Assembly (NCBI GenBank): GCA_030650095.1
Contig: JAUSEE010000033.1
Coordinates: forward strand, 90,757 to 126,519
From: Candidatus Buchananbacteria bacterium
GTDB taxonomy: Bacteria > Patescibacteriota > Patescibacteriia > 2-01-FULL-39-33
DNA length: 35,763 nt
Direction: 5' to 3'
In this document: positions 1,261 through 10,951 of the stretch, one piece after another
Layout of the letters: each line of letters opens with the position of its first letter
How positions within the stretch are numbered: position 1 is the first letter of the stretch
Notes under the pieces: generated by a model
The model's input: only the letters and a program-made list of their open reading frames with translations
Database searches by the model: none
What the model was told of the DNA's origin: nothing
Program-made: the position numbers and the translations under genes

Positions 1261-1725
1261 ATGCTCAATATTACTATTCTGGCAGTAGGAAAAATAAAAG
1301 AAAAATCTTTTTTAGAACTTGTCTTAGAGTATCTAAAAAGATTAAAGCCTTACGCTAAAATAAAAATCGAAGAACTGAAAGCTGAACCATTTAATCCTGC
1401 TAGCAAAAATAAAGCCAGGGAAATAGAAGGGGAGAGGATAATCAATTTTTTAAAAAAATTTGCCGGCAGCCGAGTTGTCTTGTTGGATGAAAGAGGCAAA
1501 AGTTTTTCTTCTCTGGAGCTAGCTGATTTTATCAGTGATGAGAAATCTCATTTTATTTTTGTCATTGGCGGATCACTGGGCTTGTCTGAAAATGTCAAAG
1601 AAAAGATAAAATCAAGGCTGTCATTGTCTAAGCTAACTTTCCCCCATGAAATGGCCAGAGTGATTTTACTGGAACAAATATATCGGTCTGTCGCCATACT
1701 CAAAAATAAAGAGTATCATTATTAA
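1261..1725 (+). CDS. rlmH: 23S rRNA (pseudouridine1915-N3)-methyltransferase RlmH
   Basis: LDERGKSFSS..., FVIGGSLGLSENVKEK, C-terminal HEMARVILLEQIYRSVAILKNKEYHY are RlmH/YbeA signatures. Confidence 0.95.
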   Translation: MLNITILAVGKIKEKSFLELVLEYLKRLKPYAKIKIEELKAEPFNPASKNKAREIEGERIINFLKKFAGSRVVLLDERGKSFSSLELADFISDEKSHFIFVIGGSLGLSENVKEKIKSRLSLSKLTFPHEMARVILLEQIYRSVAILKNKEYHY

Positions 1726-1734
1726 TTTTGATCT

Positions 1735-1772
1735 AAAAAGACTAAAAGGCAATAACTTTTTAGTCTTTTTTA
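1735..1772 (+). terminator. Rho-independent terminator after rlmH
   Basis: AAAAAGACTAAAAGGCAATAACTTTTTAGTCTTTTTT hairpin with T-tract. Confidence 0.8.
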
Positions 1773-1855
1773 TTTTTTATAATTAGATATATTTTATCTA
1801 AATTTAGCTGTATTCTATCAATTAAATAGCAGTTCTAAACTGTTATATTTTTTAC

Positions 1856-1884
1856 TTGACAAAATAAGTTTTTTAATGTAAAGT
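1856..1884 (+). promoter_or_regulatory. Sigma70-type promoter of the six-gene cluster
   Basis: TTGACA (1856-1861), 17-bp spacer, TAAAGT (1879-1884). Confidence 0.75.
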
Positions 1885-1892
1885 TTAAAGTT

Positions 1893-1950
1893 GCGTTTTA
1901 GATGTGAAACGCTTCAGTGAACGTTGACAACTGAAGAAAAAAGGAGAAAG
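1893..1950 (+). promoter_or_regulatory. Structured 5' leader: two short hairpins then SD
   Basis: GCGTTT(1893-1898)/AAACGC(1907-1912); CTTCAGT(1912-1918)/ACTGAAG(1930-1936); SD AAGGAGAAAGG. Confidence 0.55.
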
Positions 1951-1957
1951 GAAAGTT

Positions 1958-3268
1958 ATGTCGCAAGGTAATAGCGGAATGGAAATTTTGCAGCAGTTAT
2001 TGGATAATACCGATCAGGCTGTCAAGAGCATTGAAGGCCGAAGTCAGGCTGCTATTGAAGAGCAGTTGGCCGGCATTGAAAAGAAATTTTCCGAAGCGGA
2101 AAAAATTAAAGATCAGAATGAACGTGATATTCGCCTGAAGGTTTTGGAAGCTGAATTTCGCAGTTTATCCAAAGACGCAGCCCAAGAAGAGAAGGATTTG
2201 GCCGAAGCAGTTTTTGGCTTGAATGGCATGCTTGAAACTATGGGCGCCGAATATGACAATCTTGGACAGCTGTCAGAATCGGATCAGGCCGGCATCAAAA
2301 AGGCGGAAAACGCCATTGCTGAGGCCGAACAGGATTTGCTTTCAGCTCAAGGCAAGCGCTGGTTCCGCAGTCATGCGGTGAGCCAAGCAGAATTGGCCGT
2401 GCAAGAGACCAAGAGTCGATTGAAACAGCTTCAAGATGAATCGCGCAAAAATGCCCGCCAACGCCTCATGCACGCTGATATGAGCACTAGTCTTCAAGAA
2501 TTTCAAGTCCGGGTAGAAAAAACAATTGCTATTATGACCAGACGATTGAATGATATTACAACCCAACTTAAGAGTGTATCTGTTAGAAAGTCCAAGGCTT
2601 TTGAAATCAAGGAAGCGGCAGCCCAAGCTTTGGAACAATTGGATTCCAATTTGAACGAAGCTGAAGCCTCTCTTCGGGGCGAGGAAGAATTGCTTGAAAC
2701 CATGATAAATGGCACCAAAGAACATTCGGCTCAAACCGAAAAAGTTTCTAATCTTAGGGCGCAAGTGGAAGATTTGCGCGGCAATCGCAATACGGCTTTT
2801 ACTCTTTTCCAATCAAAAGAAAAATTTTCCGCTGAATTGGAAATCCATGAGCGCACCCAGATGAAGCTTCGTGATAACCAGCGCATGTGGATTGTTGCCT
2901 TGAAATCCGATACCGAGGAGCGCGTGGTCAGTTTTAAGTCGCGTCTCGAAGCCATGAAAGCCGCGGCCGATCAGGAAATCGCCAAGGAATTGGATGACAT
3001 GGGATCTCAAGTTGATCAAAACAACGCCGAATATATGGCGCGTGTCGGATCGGCTTCCGATCGTTTGCGAATGGATAAATTGGAAAAGCATCCCGAGCGC
3101 ATTCGGAAAATTGTTGAGGTTCAACAAGCCCAGGCCGAAGCTGTCTCGGCGATTCGCCAGCGTGAAACTAAAGCCATTGATGATTTTCGTAAAAGATACG
3201 GCATTGATCCGACCAGGTCATCCTTTTTTCATTACGAGAAAGGATCACCGGAGCCGGAAGGCGTTTAA
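1958..3268 (+). CDS. Long coiled-coil cytoplasmic protein, gene 1 of AAA+ cluster (unknown function)
   Basis: SD AAGGAGAAAGG; 436-aa protein dominated by Glu/Ala/Lys/Gln-rich heptad-like sequence, no signal peptide or TM seen. Confidence 0.85.
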   Translation: MSQGNSGMEILQQLLDNTDQAVKSIEGRSQAAIEEQLAGIEKKFSEAEKIKDQNERDIRLKVLEAEFRSLSKDAAQEEKDLAEAVFGLNGMLETMGAEYDNLGQLSESDQAGIKKAENAIAEAEQDLLSAQGKRWFRSHAVSQAELAVQETKSRLKQLQDESRKNARQRLMHADMSTSLQEFQVRVEKTIAIMTRRLNDITTQLKSVSVRKSKAFEIKEAAAQALEQLDSNLNEAEASLRGEEELLETMINGTKEHSAQTEKVSNLRAQVEDLRGNRNTAFTLFQSKEKFSAELEIHERTQMKLRDNQRMWIVALKSDTEERVVSFKSRLEAMKAAADQEIAKELDDMGSQVDQNNAEYMARVGSASDRLRMDKLEKHPERIRKIVEVQQAQAEAVSAIRQRETKAIDDFRKRYGIDPTRSSFFHYEKGSPEPEGV

Positions 3269-3294
3269 TTGTTATTTTTTCTGTCATTCATGTC

Positions 3295-3325
3295 GGGGAA
3301 GCTCTCTAAGCTTCCCCTATTTTTT
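3295..3325 (+). terminator. Strong terminator-like hairpin inside the cluster, after gene 1
   Basis: GGGGAAGCT-CTCTA-AGCTTCCCC 9-bp perfect stem followed by TATTTTTTT. Confidence 0.85.
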
Positions 3326-3375
3326 TAAAATAAATGCTGTTTTAATGTTTCCACCAGACCAGAAAGGAGAAATTA

Positions 3376-4527
3376 ATGACAAATGCCGTTAATCCGGTTT
3401 TAGCCAAGCAATTTGATATAACCGAATTAGATAGAAGAAGCGAATATAATATTTATTTCAGCGAAATGATCAAGCTGTTTGAACTGTTGATGAAATGCTA
3501 TCAATTGCAAGCAGACGGAGGCAATCTTGAAGCTAAAATAGTGAAGGTATTTTTGGATAAATTGCTTTGCACCATGGAAGCTCTTAAAATGAAATATTAT
3601 TTTAATACCGACCATTTTTTAAAAATTGATCTGATTGATTCCGGATTTCCTAATCACTTAGAAATAGAGTCTTTAGGTGTTGATTTGGAGATTAAAGCTG
3701 ATAAACTTGGCCAGTTGCCAACCGAATCAGTTTTGAGGCGGGTGATATTGGATAGGATGCTAACCAAATCAGAGGAGCCTGTGGAAGAGCTTCTTTTAAT
3801 GAGCAATCGTTCGTATTTGGAAATGCTTGATAGTGATAGCCTCTTTTTTATTTTTACTCCAGGTGAAATTACTTTGATGAGTACCAAACCGGAATATCGC
3901 TCCTACACTTTTTCCTGGGCTTATTGGGATTTTTCTACCAATTGTCCTTATATTAATATCATGACATTTCATCAAGATATTAAACAAGAGCCTCTCGAGG
4001 AAAAGGGATTATCTTTTTATGAATTTATGGCGGTGATCAGATCCGAAGGATCCAGGGCTTGCGATGTTGGTATTTTAGCTATGATTATTGATGAGCAGAT
4101 TGAAAGCATCCATCCCAAGATTATCAAACGTATTGGCTTGGGACCGCTGTATTCAAGATTTTTAACCAACAGTGATAATGTGGCTGAAATAGAATATTGC
4201 AATCCTGTGTTGGCGCAAGCCATAATTGATTGCGGATTAAAGGATGATGATTTTGTTTGTTTGATCGAGGATAATATTGTTTTTTCCGATCGACAGAAAA
4301 TTCATAGCAGCATGCTGACTTTTCGGAAAAAGGTCCGTGAGATATTTTTTATTCCAGAAGATGATCCCAAGTGTTATGAAAAAAGAGCTTCAGTGGTTCA
4401 CCGCTATGCTTTGATGCCCCACGCTTTGTTTCAATATTTAAGCGAAGGCAAAAAGGTTAAAGATAGCGGTTTAGCTGATTGTAAGATTTTAACTTATGAT
4501 GATAAGGAGGAAGTATATGGCATCTGA
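3376..4527 (+). CDS. Unknown protein (383 aa), gene 2 of AAA+ cluster
   Basis: SD AAAGGAG at proper spacing; overlaps next start by 11 bp. Confidence 0.85.
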   Translation: MTNAVNPVLAKQFDITELDRRSEYNIYFSEMIKLFELLMKCYQLQADGGNLEAKIVKVFLDKLLCTMEALKMKYYFNTDHFLKIDLIDSGFPNHLEIESLGVDLEIKADKLGQLPTESVLRRVILDRMLTKSEEPVEELLLMSNRSYLEMLDSDSLFFIFTPGEITLMSTKPEYRSYTFSWAYWDFSTNCPYINIMTFHQDIKQEPLEEKGLSFYEFMAVIRSEGSRACDVGILAMIIDEQIESIHPKIIKRIGLGPLYSRFLTNSDNVAEIEYCNPVLAQAIIDCGLKDDDFVCLIEDNIVFSDRQKIHSSMLTFRKKVREIFFIPEDDPKCYEKRASVVHRYALMPHALFQYLSEGKKVKDSGLADCKILTYDDKEEVYGI

Positions 4528-6466
4528 TACGGCTTATTTGCCGATTAAAGAATCACAATTAACTGAACATACAGAAAGAGCTAATGCTGTTTTAAATTCT
4601 GCCAGGTGGGCTCCCAAAAAGGGAATTCTCGATCACAAGCCGGCTGAAGTTTCAGCTGGCAAATGGCGCGAGTCTACCACTGAACGCACCACCGAGCAAG
4701 AGAAAAAATTGCTTATCTTGGCCCATCGTCTTTCCGGGCAGTCCATGCTTTTGACTGAAGACATTAATCACGTCATGAATGTAATTTTTCAAGGTTTGAA
4801 AATCGGCATGCATCTTTCTGCCACTTACGCTCAATTTTCTAATTTGGGTGTATTAATATCCCAAAATAACAAAGGTCTTCTAACAGAAGCCCAGAAGACA
4901 GAGTTTAGAGGCAAATATGTGACGGCTTCGGCTATTACAGCTTACGCCCTGTCTTATTATGTTGCCTGGAATCTGTCTAAATATAAAATCGAAGAAGTAG
5001 CCAATGTTAAAATGGAATTTGATGGTTTGCCGGAATTGTCTTTGGATAACCCGGCTCGAACTGTCAATTGCTTGATGTTTTATTTTGGAGCTTACGTGGA
5101 AGATGTAACCAAGGTGCGTTCCAGTATTGAAATGGTTAAAATGGCCCTGCTTTATTTCTCGTCTGTTTTGGATGAGATTAATTTACGCAAGTCAGCGCTT
5201 CAATATATGGAACCATTTACCAACAATTCGTATAGGCTCGAAGAGAGCGATTTTACTATTGAAGGTTTTGAAACTCATTTGGGCAATGGCGCTTCCAGCA
5301 TTGAATTTAATCATGTTGATTTGCATGACATTGTCGGCAATCAGATCGCCAAACATGAAGCGAGGCGGCTGGTTGAACGTCTGATGTGTTATGACATTTT
5401 AACCAAGAAGAATCCGATTATGAAGTTGGGTGGTTTTCCGGCGGTGCGCATGGGCTTTGGCCCTCCCGGCACTGGCAAGAGCATGCTTATTTCGGCTATT
5501 GCTACCTTATTGGATGATTGGTGCACACAGCTTAATATTCCATTTTTGTTTTGGCCCATGCCTGATACGGTAGTTTCTACCTTTCAGGGCGGTTCGGCCG
5601 AACACATGATGGCTTGGATGAAGCCCATCAAGGATCCATCCAGAATAATCTACGCGCCGATTGATGATGCCGAAAATAATTTGGAAGAACGTAGCCGGCA
5701 GGGCGTTTCAGCTGGTGTCAGGGAAGTTATTGCTGTTTTTTTACGTAATACCGAGGGTGCCTATGCGGTGAACCACGGCAATTCGGTCATTGATATTTTC
5801 ACCAATTTGCCCGATCAGGTTGATAAGGCGGTCTTGTCTCGAGTACGAAGCCGTTTTATTATCGCTGGAGCGGAAAATTGGCGTGATTTTGCGGATCAGA
5901 ATAAACTTTGGATTGATAAATATGGCCTTGATGCCAGTTTGGTTAAAATGATAGATCCTAGGAATTATGAATATTTTGCAGCCCAGAAGTTTAGCCAAGC
6001 AGCTGAAGTGGCATATGGCCAAATTGCTGGATTATCAGATAGCCGTCTTGATGAAATTTTCCAAAAAATTGCTAAGGACAATAAGCCCAATGAATATTTG
6101 TATTTTGCCAAGATGGAAGAAGCTGTTAAGGCAGTCTTTCCAACTTTTACTTCTCGCGATGTCAGAAATATCCAAGAAGCGGTTGATGGCCGAATTATGG
6201 ACTTTGATTTTCCTGATGAATGGATGGGTAATCCTGATATGTTTTTTAATCGCAGTTATGATGAAAAATTAGCTTTGCTTTTGGAACTTCGGCGCCATAA
6301 CATGAAGGGCTTGGCTTTTCATGATATTTTCCTGCAAGAATGCCGGCGTTATTTTTCCAATATGATTAAAATTGTTGATGAAGGCAGAAAACGCCAATTG
6401 GAAGATGCTGTTAGTCGCCTTAAAATTGAAAAAGAGGCTGCTCAAATTGTCCTAGGAACAAGATAG
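4517..6466 (+). CDS. AAA+ ATPase (divergent classical-AAA type), gene 3 of cluster
   Basis: Start moved to ATG 4517 behind SD AAGGAGG (ORF track begins at 4496). Walker A GFGPPGTGKS, pore-loop-like FQGGSAEHMM, Walker-B-like RIIYAPIDDAEN, sensor-1/Arg-finger-like VIDIFTNLPDQVDKAVLSRVRSRF. Confidence 0.9.
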   Translation: MASDTAYLPIKESQLTEHTERANAVLNSARWAPKKGILDHKPAEVSAGKWRESTTERTTEQEKKLLILAHRLSGQSMLLTEDINHVMNVIFQGLKIGMHLSATYAQFSNLGVLISQNNKGLLTEAQKTEFRGKYVTASAITAYALSYYVAWNLSKYKIEEVANVKMEFDGLPELSLDNPARTVNCLMFYFGAYVEDVTKVRSSIEMVKMALLYFSSVLDEINLRKSALQYMEPFTNNSYRLEESDFTIEGFETHLGNGASSIEFNHVDLHDIVGNQIAKHEARRLVERLMCYDILTKKNPIMKLGGFPAVRMGFGPPGTGKSMLISAIATLLDDWCTQLNIPFLFWPMPDTVVSTFQGGSAEHMMAWMKPIKDPSRIIYAPIDDAENNLEERSRQGVSAGVREVIAVFLRNTEGAYAVNHGNSVIDIFTNLPDQVDKAVLSRVRSRFIIAGAENWRDFADQNKLWIDKYGLDASLVKMIDPRNYEYFAAQKFSQAAEVAYGQIAGLSDSRLDEIFQKIAKDNKPNEYLYFAKMEEAVKAVFPTFTSRDVRNIQEAVDGRIMDFDFPDEWMGNPDMFFNRSYDEKLALLLELRRHNMKGLAFHDIFLQECRRYFSNMIKIVDEGRKRQLEDAVSRLKIEKEAAQIVLGTR

Positions 6467-6478
6467 AAAGGAGAAGGG

Positions 6479-7750
6479 ATGAAAAGACTCATTGAAAATG
6501 GCCTTTTTGGAGCCGGGTTAATCTCTTTAAGAACGCCAGAAATGGTGGCTCGTTATAACGCTACTTTAGAAGGATTGGGTGTTAAGCCCACATCTTTAAA
6601 ACAGTTTTCCATTGACGGCATTGGCTGGAGTCCGGAAATTGCCCATGAGCAAGGAGATAATTTCTATCTTGCTCACGGCGTTGCCAATCAATTGGCGATT
6701 ATCGCCACACCTGATCAGGATAATATGCCCATACATTTCCCTTTCACTTCTTACAACAGAAGGATGATGAAGGAGTATTTTGAAAAATTCCGGCGTGAAA
6801 TAGCCGATTTAACCGGCAGCGCTTTTATCTTTTTGGATATTGATCCGGAGATGGTTGATTTTGAGAGTCCTATGGATTTGCTCTTGATTGATCACATCAT
6901 TATTCGTTCTGAAGCCAGCGGCTTAATCGAAGCGGCTAGAAAACAGAAAGATTTACTTGATCAATTCCAAGATGATCGCAGTGCTTGGTTTGATCAGCAA
7001 TTAAGACAGGACATTATTGAAAGCGCTAAAAAATATGGCGACCTAAGATTTAGGAGTATTAATATTCCTAATATGAAATTCAGCGATCTAAGATATTTTT
7101 ATACCAGAGCCTTTAATGGAGTTTTCGTTTTCTGCGATCTGGAAAACGCCAACCATCATTCTGTCCTGATTATGGAAGATGAAGATCAATATAAATCGGT
7201 TAAGATAAACGGGCAGGGGATTTATTATTTGGGAGATTCCAAGATAATAGATCGTTTAACCAAATATGGCTTAATTGAAATTGATTTAGAGTGGTATAGA
7301 AATAATCTAGATGAGCTAAGAAAGAAGCGCGGGGCTTTGATACTTAGCGCTATTTGCGAAAATTATCCCGATATAGACTATGGCAAGACGACGTCGCCTA
7401 AAAAGAAAAGCCTAATAAAGGATTTAGGCGATAGGATGCCTAAAGTTTTCTTTCAACTGCAGAGATTGATTAAACAATTGACTATCGGACAGATTCCGAC
7501 AGTCAGTAATTTGTCTCCCAGTTTAAAACGAATTTTAATCCATCCGGCCAGTTCTTTAGCTGGTCCTGATAGGGAAGTTGTTTGGCAGATGATTTGCAAA
7601 ATTTGCCCCCTGGAAGTTTTACGGCTGTATGTTTCCGATAAAGACTTGTTTTTTAGGGAATATTTAACTTGGCCCGAAGCGAAAAAGAAATGGGTTGTTG
7701 AATTTCTGAAAGAAAATTATACGCCAGAAATGGAAAAAGAAGAACTTTAA
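6479..7750 (+). CDS. Unknown protein (423 aa), gene 4; resembles from memory the DUF6638-type family (unverified)
   Basis: SD GAAAGGAG; N-term MKRLIENGLFGAGLISLRTPEMVARYNATLEGLGVKPTSLKQFSIDGIGWSPEIAHE. Confidence 0.8.
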   Translation: MKRLIENGLFGAGLISLRTPEMVARYNATLEGLGVKPTSLKQFSIDGIGWSPEIAHEQGDNFYLAHGVANQLAIIATPDQDNMPIHFPFTSYNRRMMKEYFEKFRREIADLTGSAFIFLDIDPEMVDFESPMDLLLIDHIIIRSEASGLIEAARKQKDLLDQFQDDRSAWFDQQLRQDIIESAKKYGDLRFRSINIPNMKFSDLRYFYTRAFNGVFVFCDLENANHHSVLIMEDEDQYKSVKINGQGIYYLGDSKIIDRLTKYGLIEIDLEWYRNNLDELRKKRGALILSAICENYPDIDYGKTTSPKKKSLIKDLGDRMPKVFFQLQRLIKQLTIGQIPTVSNLSPSLKRILIHPASSLAGPDREVVWQMICKICPLEVLRLYVSDKDLFFREYLTWPEAKKKWVVEFLKENYTPEMEKEEL

Positions 7751-7768
7751 CCATCGGAGGATGAAGAC

Positions 7769-8383
7769 ATGATGTCTGTTTCGCAATATGTGATATTTTG
7801 GTCCGTCTTGTTTATTGGTTTTGGAGCGATTTGGTATAATCTTGATCGGCGTTTTGGAGTCAGATGGTATCGTTCTTGGTACAATATGACTCATAAAAAT
7901 AAATTGACGGAAGATAAAGCTATCGGTTTTATTTATAATCGTTCCACTCATTCTAAAGCCGCCTCCGCCGCTTTTATTGCTACTTTGCAAAGCATTCTAG
8001 TGGCCTGGTATATGGAAGTTAATCTTTTGGTAGCTTTAATCATGTGGCTAGCAGAAACTCCTCTGATGATGTTAGGTTTTTATCTGGCCCCCTTGGCTTG
8101 TGCCATTTGGCGAAAAAAAGAAATACTCTTCAAAACAGTCGATAAAGTGGAAAGCGGAGAACTCCAAGTGGGCGCTGAAGTAAGCCGGGTAGCCAAGAGA
8201 ATGGTGGCGCCGGTTAGAGAGCGTTTAGAAGCAATTCAGTCAAATATTGAAGCGGCTATATCGGGCGATGATGATGATTCTATTGTAGAACAGCCATCAC
8301 CGGATGATTTGCGGCTTAAAGAATTGGAGGAGACTGATCCGAGGAAGCTGATGTCTAAATTCACCAAACAAGGAGGTGATTAA
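7769..8383 (+). CDS. Small membrane protein with acidic cytoplasmic tail, gene 5 of cluster
   Basis: SD CGGAGG; about 3 predicted TM helices by eye, then helical tail with ISGDDDDSIVEQPSPDD. Confidence 0.8.
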   Translation: MMSVSQYVIFWSVLFIGFGAIWYNLDRRFGVRWYRSWYNMTHKNKLTEDKAIGFIYNRSTHSKAASAAFIATLQSILVAWYMEVNLLVALIMWLAETPLMMLGFYLAPLACAIWRKKEILFKTVDKVESGELQVGAEVSRVAKRMVAPVRERLEAIQSNIEAAISGDDDDSIVEQPSPDDLRLKELEETDPRKLMSKFTKQGGD

Positions 8384-8388
8384 CAGCC

Positions 8389-9984
8389 ATGGCCGATCCT
8401 GTTGTTAAAGAAGAACTAAAAAATGAACCTGGCAAGGTGCATTGGTTTTTCAAACATACTGGCGATAAGATTGTGAATTTTGCCAGAAAGCATATTATGG
8501 CTTTTATAATCATGGTTGTTCTGTCGCTCGTTTCATTATTTTTACTTAGAGTTTTTTTCCATCATTGGGCCATTGAACTGCGCAAGCATTTTGGGCTTTT
8601 AATTGTTGGTTTGCCGCTACTGACCTTGATGTGGCTATTGATTAGAAAAGGCTCGATTAAGAAAAAGATTATTGTGGGCTTAATGTATTTGATTTTAGGA
8701 AGTTTTGTTTATTTTTATGGCCGTGGTTGTTATGATTATTTTTCTTTTTATTATCGTTTTAAGACTTTGGTGACTGTTGAACTGGATGAGTTGCCAATCA
8801 CCGGCCATGAGAGGATACAACCTCTTAATTCTATCTATTCTTTGGCTCATGAAGTTATGGCTGAAAGCGAACTGCCAACTCGTCCTGGCTTTGTCAGGAT
8901 AGGAGATAATTATCGTTGGACTATGGCTGTTCAGCCGGCTTATCCTCTCTCGCAGCTTTTGGGCGAGGTAGACGAGATAATTAATGTTTCTGGGACGTCA
9001 CCCTCGCCTGATTTTTCCAGGGATAATAGGATTAAAGTCAGCTTTCTGGTTGGCGATAATCTAAGATTAAGCCATAACACCAATACGGCGGTTATCAAAC
9101 GGTTTGGCCCTTGGAAATTCTTTAATTATGAACCCAGCGATATTATTTACATAACTGACGATAATGGAGAATGGGTTCAGGTAGTTTCCTTGATTCGTTG
9201 GAAAGGAATATTTTTCCCCATGCCGGAATTTGGCGGTGTGGTGGTGATAAGGCAGGAAAAACATAGCCTGGTTTCATTAGCTAAACTCATTGTTGGCGGA
9301 ACAGGCGAGTGGATTAAGCCGCAAGATATTTGTAATTATAATTATTTAGTCGGTCAGGATATATTATCTTTTAATATTTCCAGATATATGGCTAATAGTT
9401 TTAGATTCCAAACTGGGTTTTTTGCTCCTTTTCCTGGCTATCACTTGGGTGATGTCCGGATTCCTGATTTATCAGAAGATGTCAATCAGCAGCCGTTTAC
9501 CACCCATTTTAAAATAGGCGAGGTGGAAGATGATAATTCTCTCTATCACTATTTTGCCCTTGAGCCATATGATATTAATCAGCAGGGTTTGAATACCAGC
9601 TTGTTTATTCCAGCCGATGGTTCTGGACCAGTTTATGTTTACAAGCATTACAATCGTAATCGATCAATGATCGGTGTTAGCGCCATTTCTGCCAAGGTTA
9701 TGGAAAGCAAAAAGAATTATGATTGGAGTCGTAACTTTCCAGTTGAGCATAGGCCATTTATCAAGAAGATAGATGGTCAGATCAGATTTTTTTGGCTGAC
9801 CACTGTGGTAACACTGAAGCAGACCGAGGATAATAATAAGTTTATCGCCGGCAATATTCCAGAACTGGTTATAACCGATGCTTCTTACAATGCTCCGGTT
9901 TGGGTTGATACTTTAAAACCAGACGGATGGGAAAGCGAATTAAAAGAAAAACTTTCCTATATCTGGTCGGATCAAAACCGATAA
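8389..9984 (+). CDS. Membrane protein with 3 N-terminal TM helices and large C-terminal domain, gene 6 of cluster
   Basis: SD AAGGAGGTGAT; hydrophobic segments HIMAFIIMVVLSLVSLFLLRVFF, FGLLIVGLPLLTLMWLLI, IIVGLMYLILGSFVYFYG followed by ~400 aa without obvious TM. Confidence 0.85.
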   Translation: MADPVVKEELKNEPGKVHWFFKHTGDKIVNFARKHIMAFIIMVVLSLVSLFLLRVFFHHWAIELRKHFGLLIVGLPLLTLMWLLIRKGSIKKKIIVGLMYLILGSFVYFYGRGCYDYFSFYYRFKTLVTVELDELPITGHERIQPLNSIYSLAHEVMAESELPTRPGFVRIGDNYRWTMAVQPAYPLSQLLGEVDEIINVSGTSPSPDFSRDNRIKVSFLVGDNLRLSHNTNTAVIKRFGPWKFFNYEPSDIIYITDDNGEWVQVVSLIRWKGIFFPMPEFGGVVVIRQEKHSLVSLAKLIVGGTGEWIKPQDICNYNYLVGQDILSFNISRYMANSFRFQTGFFAPFPGYHLGDVRIPDLSEDVNQQPFTTHFKIGEVEDDNSLYHYFALEPYDINQQGLNTSLFIPADGSGPVYVYKHYNRNRSMIGVSAISAKVMESKKNYDWSRNFPVEHRPFIKKIDGQIRFFWLTTVVTLKQTEDNNKFIAGNIPELVITDASYNAPVWVDTLKPDGWESELKEKLSYIWSDQNR

Positions 9985-10009
9985 AATAGCACTTTTATAA
10001 ATTAAATAA

Positions 10010-10037
10010 GAGTTCCAATTTCAGGAGCTCTTTTTTT
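10010..10037 (+). terminator. Terminator at the end of the AAA+ cluster
   Basis: GAGTTCC-AATTTCA-GGAGCTC followed by TTTTTTT. Confidence 0.8.
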
Positions 10038-10066
10038 ATTTCGTAATTATTGTTAATATAATAGAT

Positions 10067-10951
10067 ATGGATAAGCCTTTATTAATATTGCCTTTCGACC
10101 ATCGCAGTTCTTTTTCCAAGGACATTCTAGGCTTGGAGGGCGAGTTAAACCAAAAACAAAAAAAAGAAATATCTAATCTTAAAAAGATAATTTTTGAAGC
10201 TTTTGTTATCGTTCGGAAAAAGTACAAAGCCGATGATTATTTTGGCATTTTAGTGGATGAAGAATATGGCTTATCAATTATTAGGCAAGCGCAAAAAATA
10301 AAAATCATAGTTTGCCTGCCGGTAGAGAAAAGCGGCCAAAGTGAATTGCAATTTGAATATGGAAAATATTTTGGCAGTCATATTAAAAAAATAAACCCCG
10401 ATTACGTTAAAGTTCTAGTGCGTTACAATCCGCTTAACAAGCAGCTTAATAAAAAACAGCTGGTAAAATTAAAGGAGTTGGATTATTTTTGCCGTAAAAA
10501 TAATTATAAAGTAATGTTAGAGCTTCTGGAGTCGCCAACCGCCTATGATTTAAAAATGGCTAAAAGCGGAGCTAATTACAATAATACCCTGCGTCTAGCT
10601 AGAACAACGGCAGTTATAGAGGAAATAAGAAATGTTTTAAAAGTTGATATCTGGAAATTAGAATATTTTACCAAAAAAGGTTGGCAGAAGGTTATCAAGG
10701 TTGTCGGCCAGAAATCTAAAATAATTCTTTTGGGTGGTGGCGAAGATAAAGCAGTAGTGGATAAATGGATAAAAGACGCTTCAAAGTTTGATCAGATAAT
10801 CGGTTTTGCCATTGGCCGGACTATTTTCTTAAACGAGCTTAAAAAATATGTGGCTGGCAAAATAACCAAAAAGGAAGCCATCAAGCTGATAGCCGATAAT
10901 TTTGATTATTTTGTTAAATTATGGGCCAAGAATAAAGGTATCAATTTATAA
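10067..10951 (+). CDS. DUF2090/aldolase-like (TIM-barrel) protein
   Basis: LLILPFDHRSSFSKDILG..., ILVDEEYG, NYKVMLELLESPT, DIWKLEY, IILLGGGEDKAVVDKWI, IIGFAIGRTIF match the DUF2090/IolC-C-terminal aldolase pattern. Confidence 0.75.
   Translation: MDKPLLILPFDHRSSFSKDILGLEGELNQKQKKEISNLKKIIFEAFVIVRKKYKADDYFGILVDEEYGLSIIRQAQKIKIIVCLPVEKSGQSELQFEYGKYFGSHIKKINPDYVKVLVRYNPLNKQLNKKQLVKLKELDYFCRKNNYKVMLELLESPTAYDLKMAKSGANYNNTLRLARTTAVIEEIRNVLKVDIWKLEYFTKKGWQKVIKVVGQKSKIILLGGGEDKAVVDKWIKDASKFDQIIGFAIGRTIFLNELKKYVAGKITKKEAIKLIADNFDYFVKLWAKNKGINL

Follow-up and report, generated by a model that had tools for sequence, protein, structure and literature searches.

Operons in which PspA or Snf7 proteins accompany an AAA ATPase are a known theme, and the AAA partner reported for bacterial PspA in such operons carries two AAA domains (PMC11237479). 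The block of six genes addressed here (g1 to g6) encodes a long coiled-coil protein (g1), a soluble protein (g2), an AAA ATPase (g3), a DUF6638 protein (g4) and two membrane proteins (g5 and g6). It lies in a stretch of 35,763 nucleotides, the whole of which is called the window below, from a Candidatus Buchananbacteria bacterium (GCA_030650095.1, contig JAUSEE010000033.1, positions 90,757-126,519 of the forward strand). Judged by gene order, this block is one conserved unit, far more so than chance would produce, because g1 to g4 keep the same order and strand in 77 of the 77 loci in which all four were detected. We give about even odds to its being an operon that moves horizontally as a self-contained whole and encodes a membrane-associated, ATP-driven machine for protein remodelling. 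The operon, with its invariant core, spans Patescibacteria, Bacteroidota, Alphaproteobacteria, Vibrio megaplasmids and a jumbo phage, and yet its function is undescribed.

The loci were collected by a scan with an AAA alignment, run over one genome per species, which gave 80 loci. All three partners are present at 67 of the 69 g3 loci that have 3.5 kb of flanking sequence on both sides. The 77 and 69 loci were thus picked via g3, but the co-occurrence of the genes among genomes is independent of this choice. Indeed, the genomes with DUF6638 and those with a match to the g2 profile coincide exactly, at 26 of 399 in Pseudomonadota and 4 of 297 in Bacteroidota, hence 30 of the 696 genomes sampled overall; furthermore, independent searches of a plasmid collection with g3 and with g4 returned the same 10 records. 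The first-pass annotation of the window, made from its letters, had proposed a functional unit that synteny of at least four genes in distant genomes would support. Such synteny is what the loci display, and neither homologues scattered without synteny nor strong matches to unrelated pathways were encountered. The unit can nevertheless be split, since in one member of the Bacteroidota (G427, locus L117, 5152-15999) g4 to g6 stand about 12 kb from g2 (G427:C5:134151), one gene of more than 1400 codons and two others lying between them.

The full g1-g6 order is found in other Patescibacteria, namely in the family of the window organism (L008) and in 'Candidatus Doudnabacteria' (L009 and L010), and likewise in Bacteroidota (L011, L116 and L118, with the set split in L117), which bears out the suggestion of a cassette shared across phyla. 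The loci with g1 to g4 belong mostly to Alphaproteobacteria, with the addition of Vibrio megaplasmids and a jumbo phage. The cassette is single-copy and patchy: 55 of the 121 genomes of one roseobacter family carry it, as does one of the three genomes of the window's genus, and DUF6638 is present in 2 of 287 Patescibacteria and in 2 of 58 near relatives. In Rhizobiaceae, the operon stands beside the same neighbours. The g3 and g4 trees agree on two deep groups, Patescibacteria plus Bacteroidota versus the rest (support 100/100). In the g3 tree the copy in the window clusters with those of Doudnabacteria and Bacteroidota and not with L008 of its own family; L008 has a very long branch and an uncertain placement.

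Several of the carriers have features of their own. The jumbo-phage contig (L090, IMGVR_UViG_3300035698_035310, 359 kb) encodes adjoining FliG-like and FliM-like motor-switch proteins (2512-3416; FliG_M 5e-17, FliM 3e-22), and also DUF2333, about 30 tRNAs, an EF-G-like factor and a topoisomerase II. The Vibrio replicons with g1 to g4 (L005, L006 and L158; NZ_CP062152.1, NZ_CP015514.1) are annotated as plasmids of 882-939 kb, and one of them carries a Dot/Icm-type conjugation system, a PilO2 pilus and its own recA, clpX, secA and mfd.

By its Pfam assignment g3 is a classical AAA protein (PF00004, 7.8e-11, 43 bits for a gathering cut-off of 21.2), and its closest solved relatives by sequence match to the PDB are Cdc48, VAT, spastin and Vps4. 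Walker A, sensor 1 and the arginine fingers are conserved across 17 aligned g3 proteins, and pore loop 1 has an aromatic residue (Y or F) followed by Q-G in 85 of 88 sequences. At Walker B, every g3 protein in the aligned sets has Asp-Asp instead of the usual Asp-Glu; the assignment to classical AAA holds despite this pair, and g3 may hydrolyse ATP. The labels 'MoxR-type' and 'Vps4/CdvC' do not fit g3, as the protein scores 14.6 bits with the Pfam model AAA_5 (cut-off 22), AAA_3 is not among the matches listed, and the NCBIfam CdvC model gives 20.9 bits for a cut-off of 650. The g3 copy of L008 (L008:5646-7589) is very diverged, with a branch of 3.5 changes per column, a KMQG pore loop and GTTGTGKT as Walker A; it is possibly under different selection.

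The g4 protein had been likened to the DUF6638-type family, and it does match this family over residues 13-415 (PF20343, 8.5e-53, 180.2 bits for a cut-off of 27). Its AlphaFold2 model is confident (pLDDT 89, pTM 0.84), and Foldseek matched it to no fold of the PDB or BFVD (best query TM-score 0.13); DUF6638 therefore probably has, on the strength of this model, a fold not yet solved. The profiles of g2, g4 and g6 found no relative in the PDB, and g1, g2, g5 and g6 have no convincing match in Pfam, NCBIfam, PHROGs or PADLOC. The idea that g2 and g4 have related folds was abandoned (hhalign probability 0.2%). The literature collection searched has no mention of DUF6638 and only passing ones of DUF1523 and DUF2333, and no description was found of DUF6638 as the marker of a fixed operon.

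The AlphaFold2 model of g1 (pLDDT 84) is all-helical, and its helices 176-248 (73 residues) and 254-377 (124 residues) form a long hairpin. Conservation across phyla is highest at about residues 300-380; among alphaproteobacteria the protein is strongly conserved, 77 sequences falling into 8 groups at 72% identity.

The membrane genes are the part of the operon that varies with lineage. Relatives of g5 are found in L008, L010, L011, L116, L117 and L118. The alphaproteobacterial, Vibrio and phage copies have g1 to g4 in common and membrane genes other than g5 and g6. In 56 of 56 Rhodobacterales-type loci, g4 is followed by an 89-aa protein with two transmembrane segments and then by DUF1523 (PF07509), each within 60 bp; in Rhizobiales, DUF2333 (PF10095) closes the operon, and in the phage DUF2333 lies upstream of g1. 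Profile comparison indicates that g5 and g6 are not homologous to DUF1523 or DUF2333, and lends no support to their being diverged forms of these families or of the 89-aa protein. Both g5 and g6 had been described as having three transmembrane segments. For g6 hydropathy agrees, and the large C-terminal domain noted earlier comprises about 420 residues with no relative in Pfam or the PDB; for g5 two segments are clear and a third is plausible.

The features of the window are collected in the table. A check of the open reading frames (ORFs) confirmed the six co-directional genes, with their positions and spacing: g2 and g3 overlap by 11 bp, and gaps of 12, 18 and 5 bp separate g3 from g4, g4 from g5 and g5 from g6. 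Five of the lengths first given are exact, whereas g3 has 649 codons and not 650, its start being set at the ATG at 4517 rather than the upstream one at 4496 because AAGGAGG immediately precedes the former. As had been noted, a strong Shine-Dalgarno sequence precedes each of the six starts and a terminator follows the cluster. The 'one strong promoter' fared less well: its -35 box is perfect, but its -10 box is only TAAAGT, and such sites are not in excess in the region over shuffled sequences (40 vs 32.8 +/- 5.2). The view of the six genes as one transcription block had overlooked the strong terminator directly after g1, because of which g1 is partly uncoupled from g2-g6. L008, of the same family, and the Vibrio plasmid copies likewise have hairpins after g1, which differ in sequence.

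Table. Features of the six-gene block and its flanks (window coordinates).
Feature	Position	Strand	Remarks
rlmH	1261-1725		flanking gene
Interval absent between rlmH and the DUF2090 gene in same-genus G287	1726..10066	+	
Promoter-like site upstream of g1	1856..1884	+	TTGACA-17-TAAAGT; 10 of 12 matches, -35 perfect, -10 TAAAGT
g1	1958..3268	+	long all-helical coiled-coil protein, 436 aa, without described family
Terminator hairpin directly after g1	3295..3317	+	strong, intrinsic
g2	3376..4527	+	soluble protein, 383 aa, conserved across phyla
g3	4517..6466	+	AAA ATPase of the classical clade, 649 aa; a single AAA domain and a helical N-terminal one
g3 Walker A	5453..5482	+	residues 313-322
g3 pore loop 1	5576..5590	+	STFQG, residues 354-358
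g3 Walker B acidic pair	5663..5668	+	D383-D384; Asp in place of usual Glu
g3 sensor 1 and arginine-finger positions	5804..5854	+	Asn430; Arg442/Arg446
g4	6479..7750	+	DUF6638 protein, 423 aa
g5	7769..8383	+	small membrane protein, 204 aa; 2 clear transmembrane segments (hydropathy), third plausible
g6	8389..9984	+	membrane protein, 531 aa; 3 transmembrane segments near N terminus (hydropathy)
Terminator after g6	10008..10032	+	
DUF2090 gene	10067-10951		flanking gene

In the window, rlmH and the DUF2090 gene flank exactly the six-gene block. In G287, which belongs to the same genus and lacks DUF6638, the corresponding genes (67% and 72% identical, respectively) are separated by 69 bp. The block is thus a discrete insertion here, a point likewise overlooked at first, and the difference from G287 would fit both a gain in the window organism and a clean loss in G287; gain is favoured because the cassette is rare in relatives. 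No integrase was found among the window ORFs within the block. The window and both relatives from the same genus have a tRNA-Glu near this place. Globally, the cassette appears, from its distribution, to have moved horizontally as one block among distant bacteria, a jumbo phage and large plasmids. Foreign base composition was rejected as proof of transfer: the G+C content of the cassette is 0.406 vs 0.386 in the rest, and only g1 deviates. Its value, 0.465 vs about 0.39 in the other window genes, fits a distinct expression or origin.

How such a machine might work can be sketched from its parts. An ATP-driven remodelling activity, as first proposed, is reasonable by analogy because g3 is a classical AAA ATPase with a conserved aromatic pore loop; membership of the parts in the PspA, ESCRT or MoxR families is not supported. 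The best mechanism would be the threading of a partner by the AAA+ protein at the membrane. The g3 protein would form a ring and take hold of the partner with its aromatic pore loop, so as to dissociate or rearrange it; the likeliest partner would be g1, by its conserved C-terminal half. The g1 protein itself would be a polymer or scaffold, presumably made in excess because its gene has its own terminator, and g2 and g4 would be fixed cytosolic subunits acting as adaptor or regulator. The membrane genes (g5 and g6, the two-segment protein with DUF1523, or DUF2333) would anchor the machine at the membrane and link it with the outside of the cell. Its task would probably be to maintain or remodel the envelope protectively when the cell is stressed or attacked. 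Several points weigh against this scheme. By sequence models and Foldseek, g1 resembles no known remodelling polymer; the invariant Asp-Asp of Walker B makes the predicted hydrolysis of ATP by g3 less certain; and we infer both the action of g3 on g1 and the siting of the complex at the membrane, as well as a membrane role common to the partners of three lineages, because these partners are not homologous by profile.

The strongest alternative, which we hold to be possible but clearly less probable, is a conflict system, anti-phage or anti-plasmid, in which the AAA core would sense or be triggered by an invader and deploy a membrane protein or an exchangeable effector whose gene lies in the g3-g4 slot. 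This interval exceeds 300 bp in 49 of the 56 Rhodobacterales-type loci, and its genes mostly differ between loci. Over all loci it holds 59 ORFs, mainly small proteins with two or three transmembrane segments (30 of 55, vs 15 of 115 control genes from the flanks, p=5e-8). TIR, Mrr, PIN/Phd and DUF559 occur in it once each (examples of slot genes being TIR at L074:11614-12303, Mrr at L026:11910-12827 and PDC-S31 at L014:11917-12606), and Nudix genes occupy it in Bacteroidota; in two loci of Rhizobiales type, Fic proteins are encoded between g2 and g3. The field accepts as a lead that candidate defence genes are embedded in operons ('guilt-by-embedding', PMC12988326). The patchy single-copy occurrence of the operon, its carriage by a jumbo phage and conjugative megaplasmids and its clean insertion in the window also speak for such a system. 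However, the core genes have no PADLOC match at 1e-3 (best E 0.0062), and PADLOC matches are not enriched in the slot over the 115 flank genes of the same loci (7/58 vs up to 15/115, p=1.0; 7/58 vs 5/115, p=0.11, when generic ATPase-type models are left out). Furthermore, the constant neighbours of the operon in Rhizobiaceae suggest a housekeeping use there. A defence enrichment of the slot, suggested by its TIR, Mrr, Fic and PDC families, was discarded, the flank control being similar and several PDC matches being one protein recounted. The 65 clusters of slot genes were likewise not retained as unrelated families: many of the small three-segment proteins look alike by eye and may be one fast-evolving family, which makes this count an upper bound. 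An anti-phage role is possible, unsupported as it is by the controlled PADLOC comparison. A more specific version, slightly less probable still, would make the operon a new class of conflict system, whose AAA/coiled-coil/DUF6638 core triggers or loads a swappable slot effector and is exchanged among bacteria, megaplasmids and jumbo phages.

We regard as unlikely that g3 serves g2 and g4 alone as an AAA chaperone of the activase type, like Rubisco activase, and takes no part in membrane remodelling. Rubisco activase likewise lacks the usual Walker B Glu, which the invariant Asp-Asp of g3 brings to mind, and the coupling of g2 with g4, and of both with g3, is strict; however, g1 and the membrane genes are linked as tightly as g2 and g4. 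Marginally less credible is a true membrane remodelling of the ESCRT-III/Vps4 or PspA type, with g1 as a highly diverged member. The parts are alike (a coiled-coil protein, a classical AAA ATPase with its pore loop, membrane proteins), operons with such parts have the precedent mentioned at the outset and the g1 model is a long helical hairpin, but 11 diverse g1 sequences have no PspA, Snf7/ESCRT-III or TelA (PF05816) match in Pfam at E 0.1, and PF05816 has no match in the window organism's own genome either. The g1 monomer model has no match below E 0.01 in the PDB (Foldseek, best 0.011), with no PspA or ESCRT structure among the 50 matches listed, and g3 falls far below the CdvC cut-off. Membership of g1 in the PspA, TelA or ESCRT-III families is therefore not supported, the Foldseek matches being weak long-helix ones. 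Least probable is that the AAA machine holds or deploys g1 as an alpha-helical pore former of the ClyA type. In favour of this reading, AhlB/AhlC, MakA, XaxB/YaxA and F-BAR proteins make up many of the top Foldseek matches of g1; against it, the best E-value is 0.011 and the query TM-scores go up to 0.40, long helical bundles match one another trivially, and hydropathy reveals no transmembrane head segment in g1.

The function of the operon is directly testable, because its alphaproteobacterial carriers are culturable. Nearly half of the genomes of one roseobacter family have it, of its four core families three are missing from Pfam or appear in it only as a DUF, and one core protein, g4, has a confidently modelled fold that no solved structure shares.

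The novelty of the operon lies at the level of the system, its ATPase being of a familiar type. Like Cdc48/VAT, spastin, Vps4 and CdvC, g3 has an AAA domain with an aromatic pore loop 1, a sensor 1 Asn and arginine fingers; unlike these classical remodelling ATPases, it has an Asp-Asp Walker B and an N-terminal region of its own, about 260 aa long, that matches nothing in Pfam, and its likeness to them is restricted to the AAA domain. The operons of PspA and Snf7 (PMC11237479) likewise bring together a coiled-coil protein, an AAA ATPase and membrane proteins, but g1 is neither PspA nor Snf7, and no counterpart of g2 or g4 is described there. DUF2333 also occurs elsewhere, for example near genes of type VI secretion systems (PMC5256989). 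In the operon described here, g4 is a full-length member of DUF6638, a Pfam family of undescribed function, and DUF1523 and DUF2333 are the membrane gene in Rhodobacterales and in Rhizobiales, respectively.

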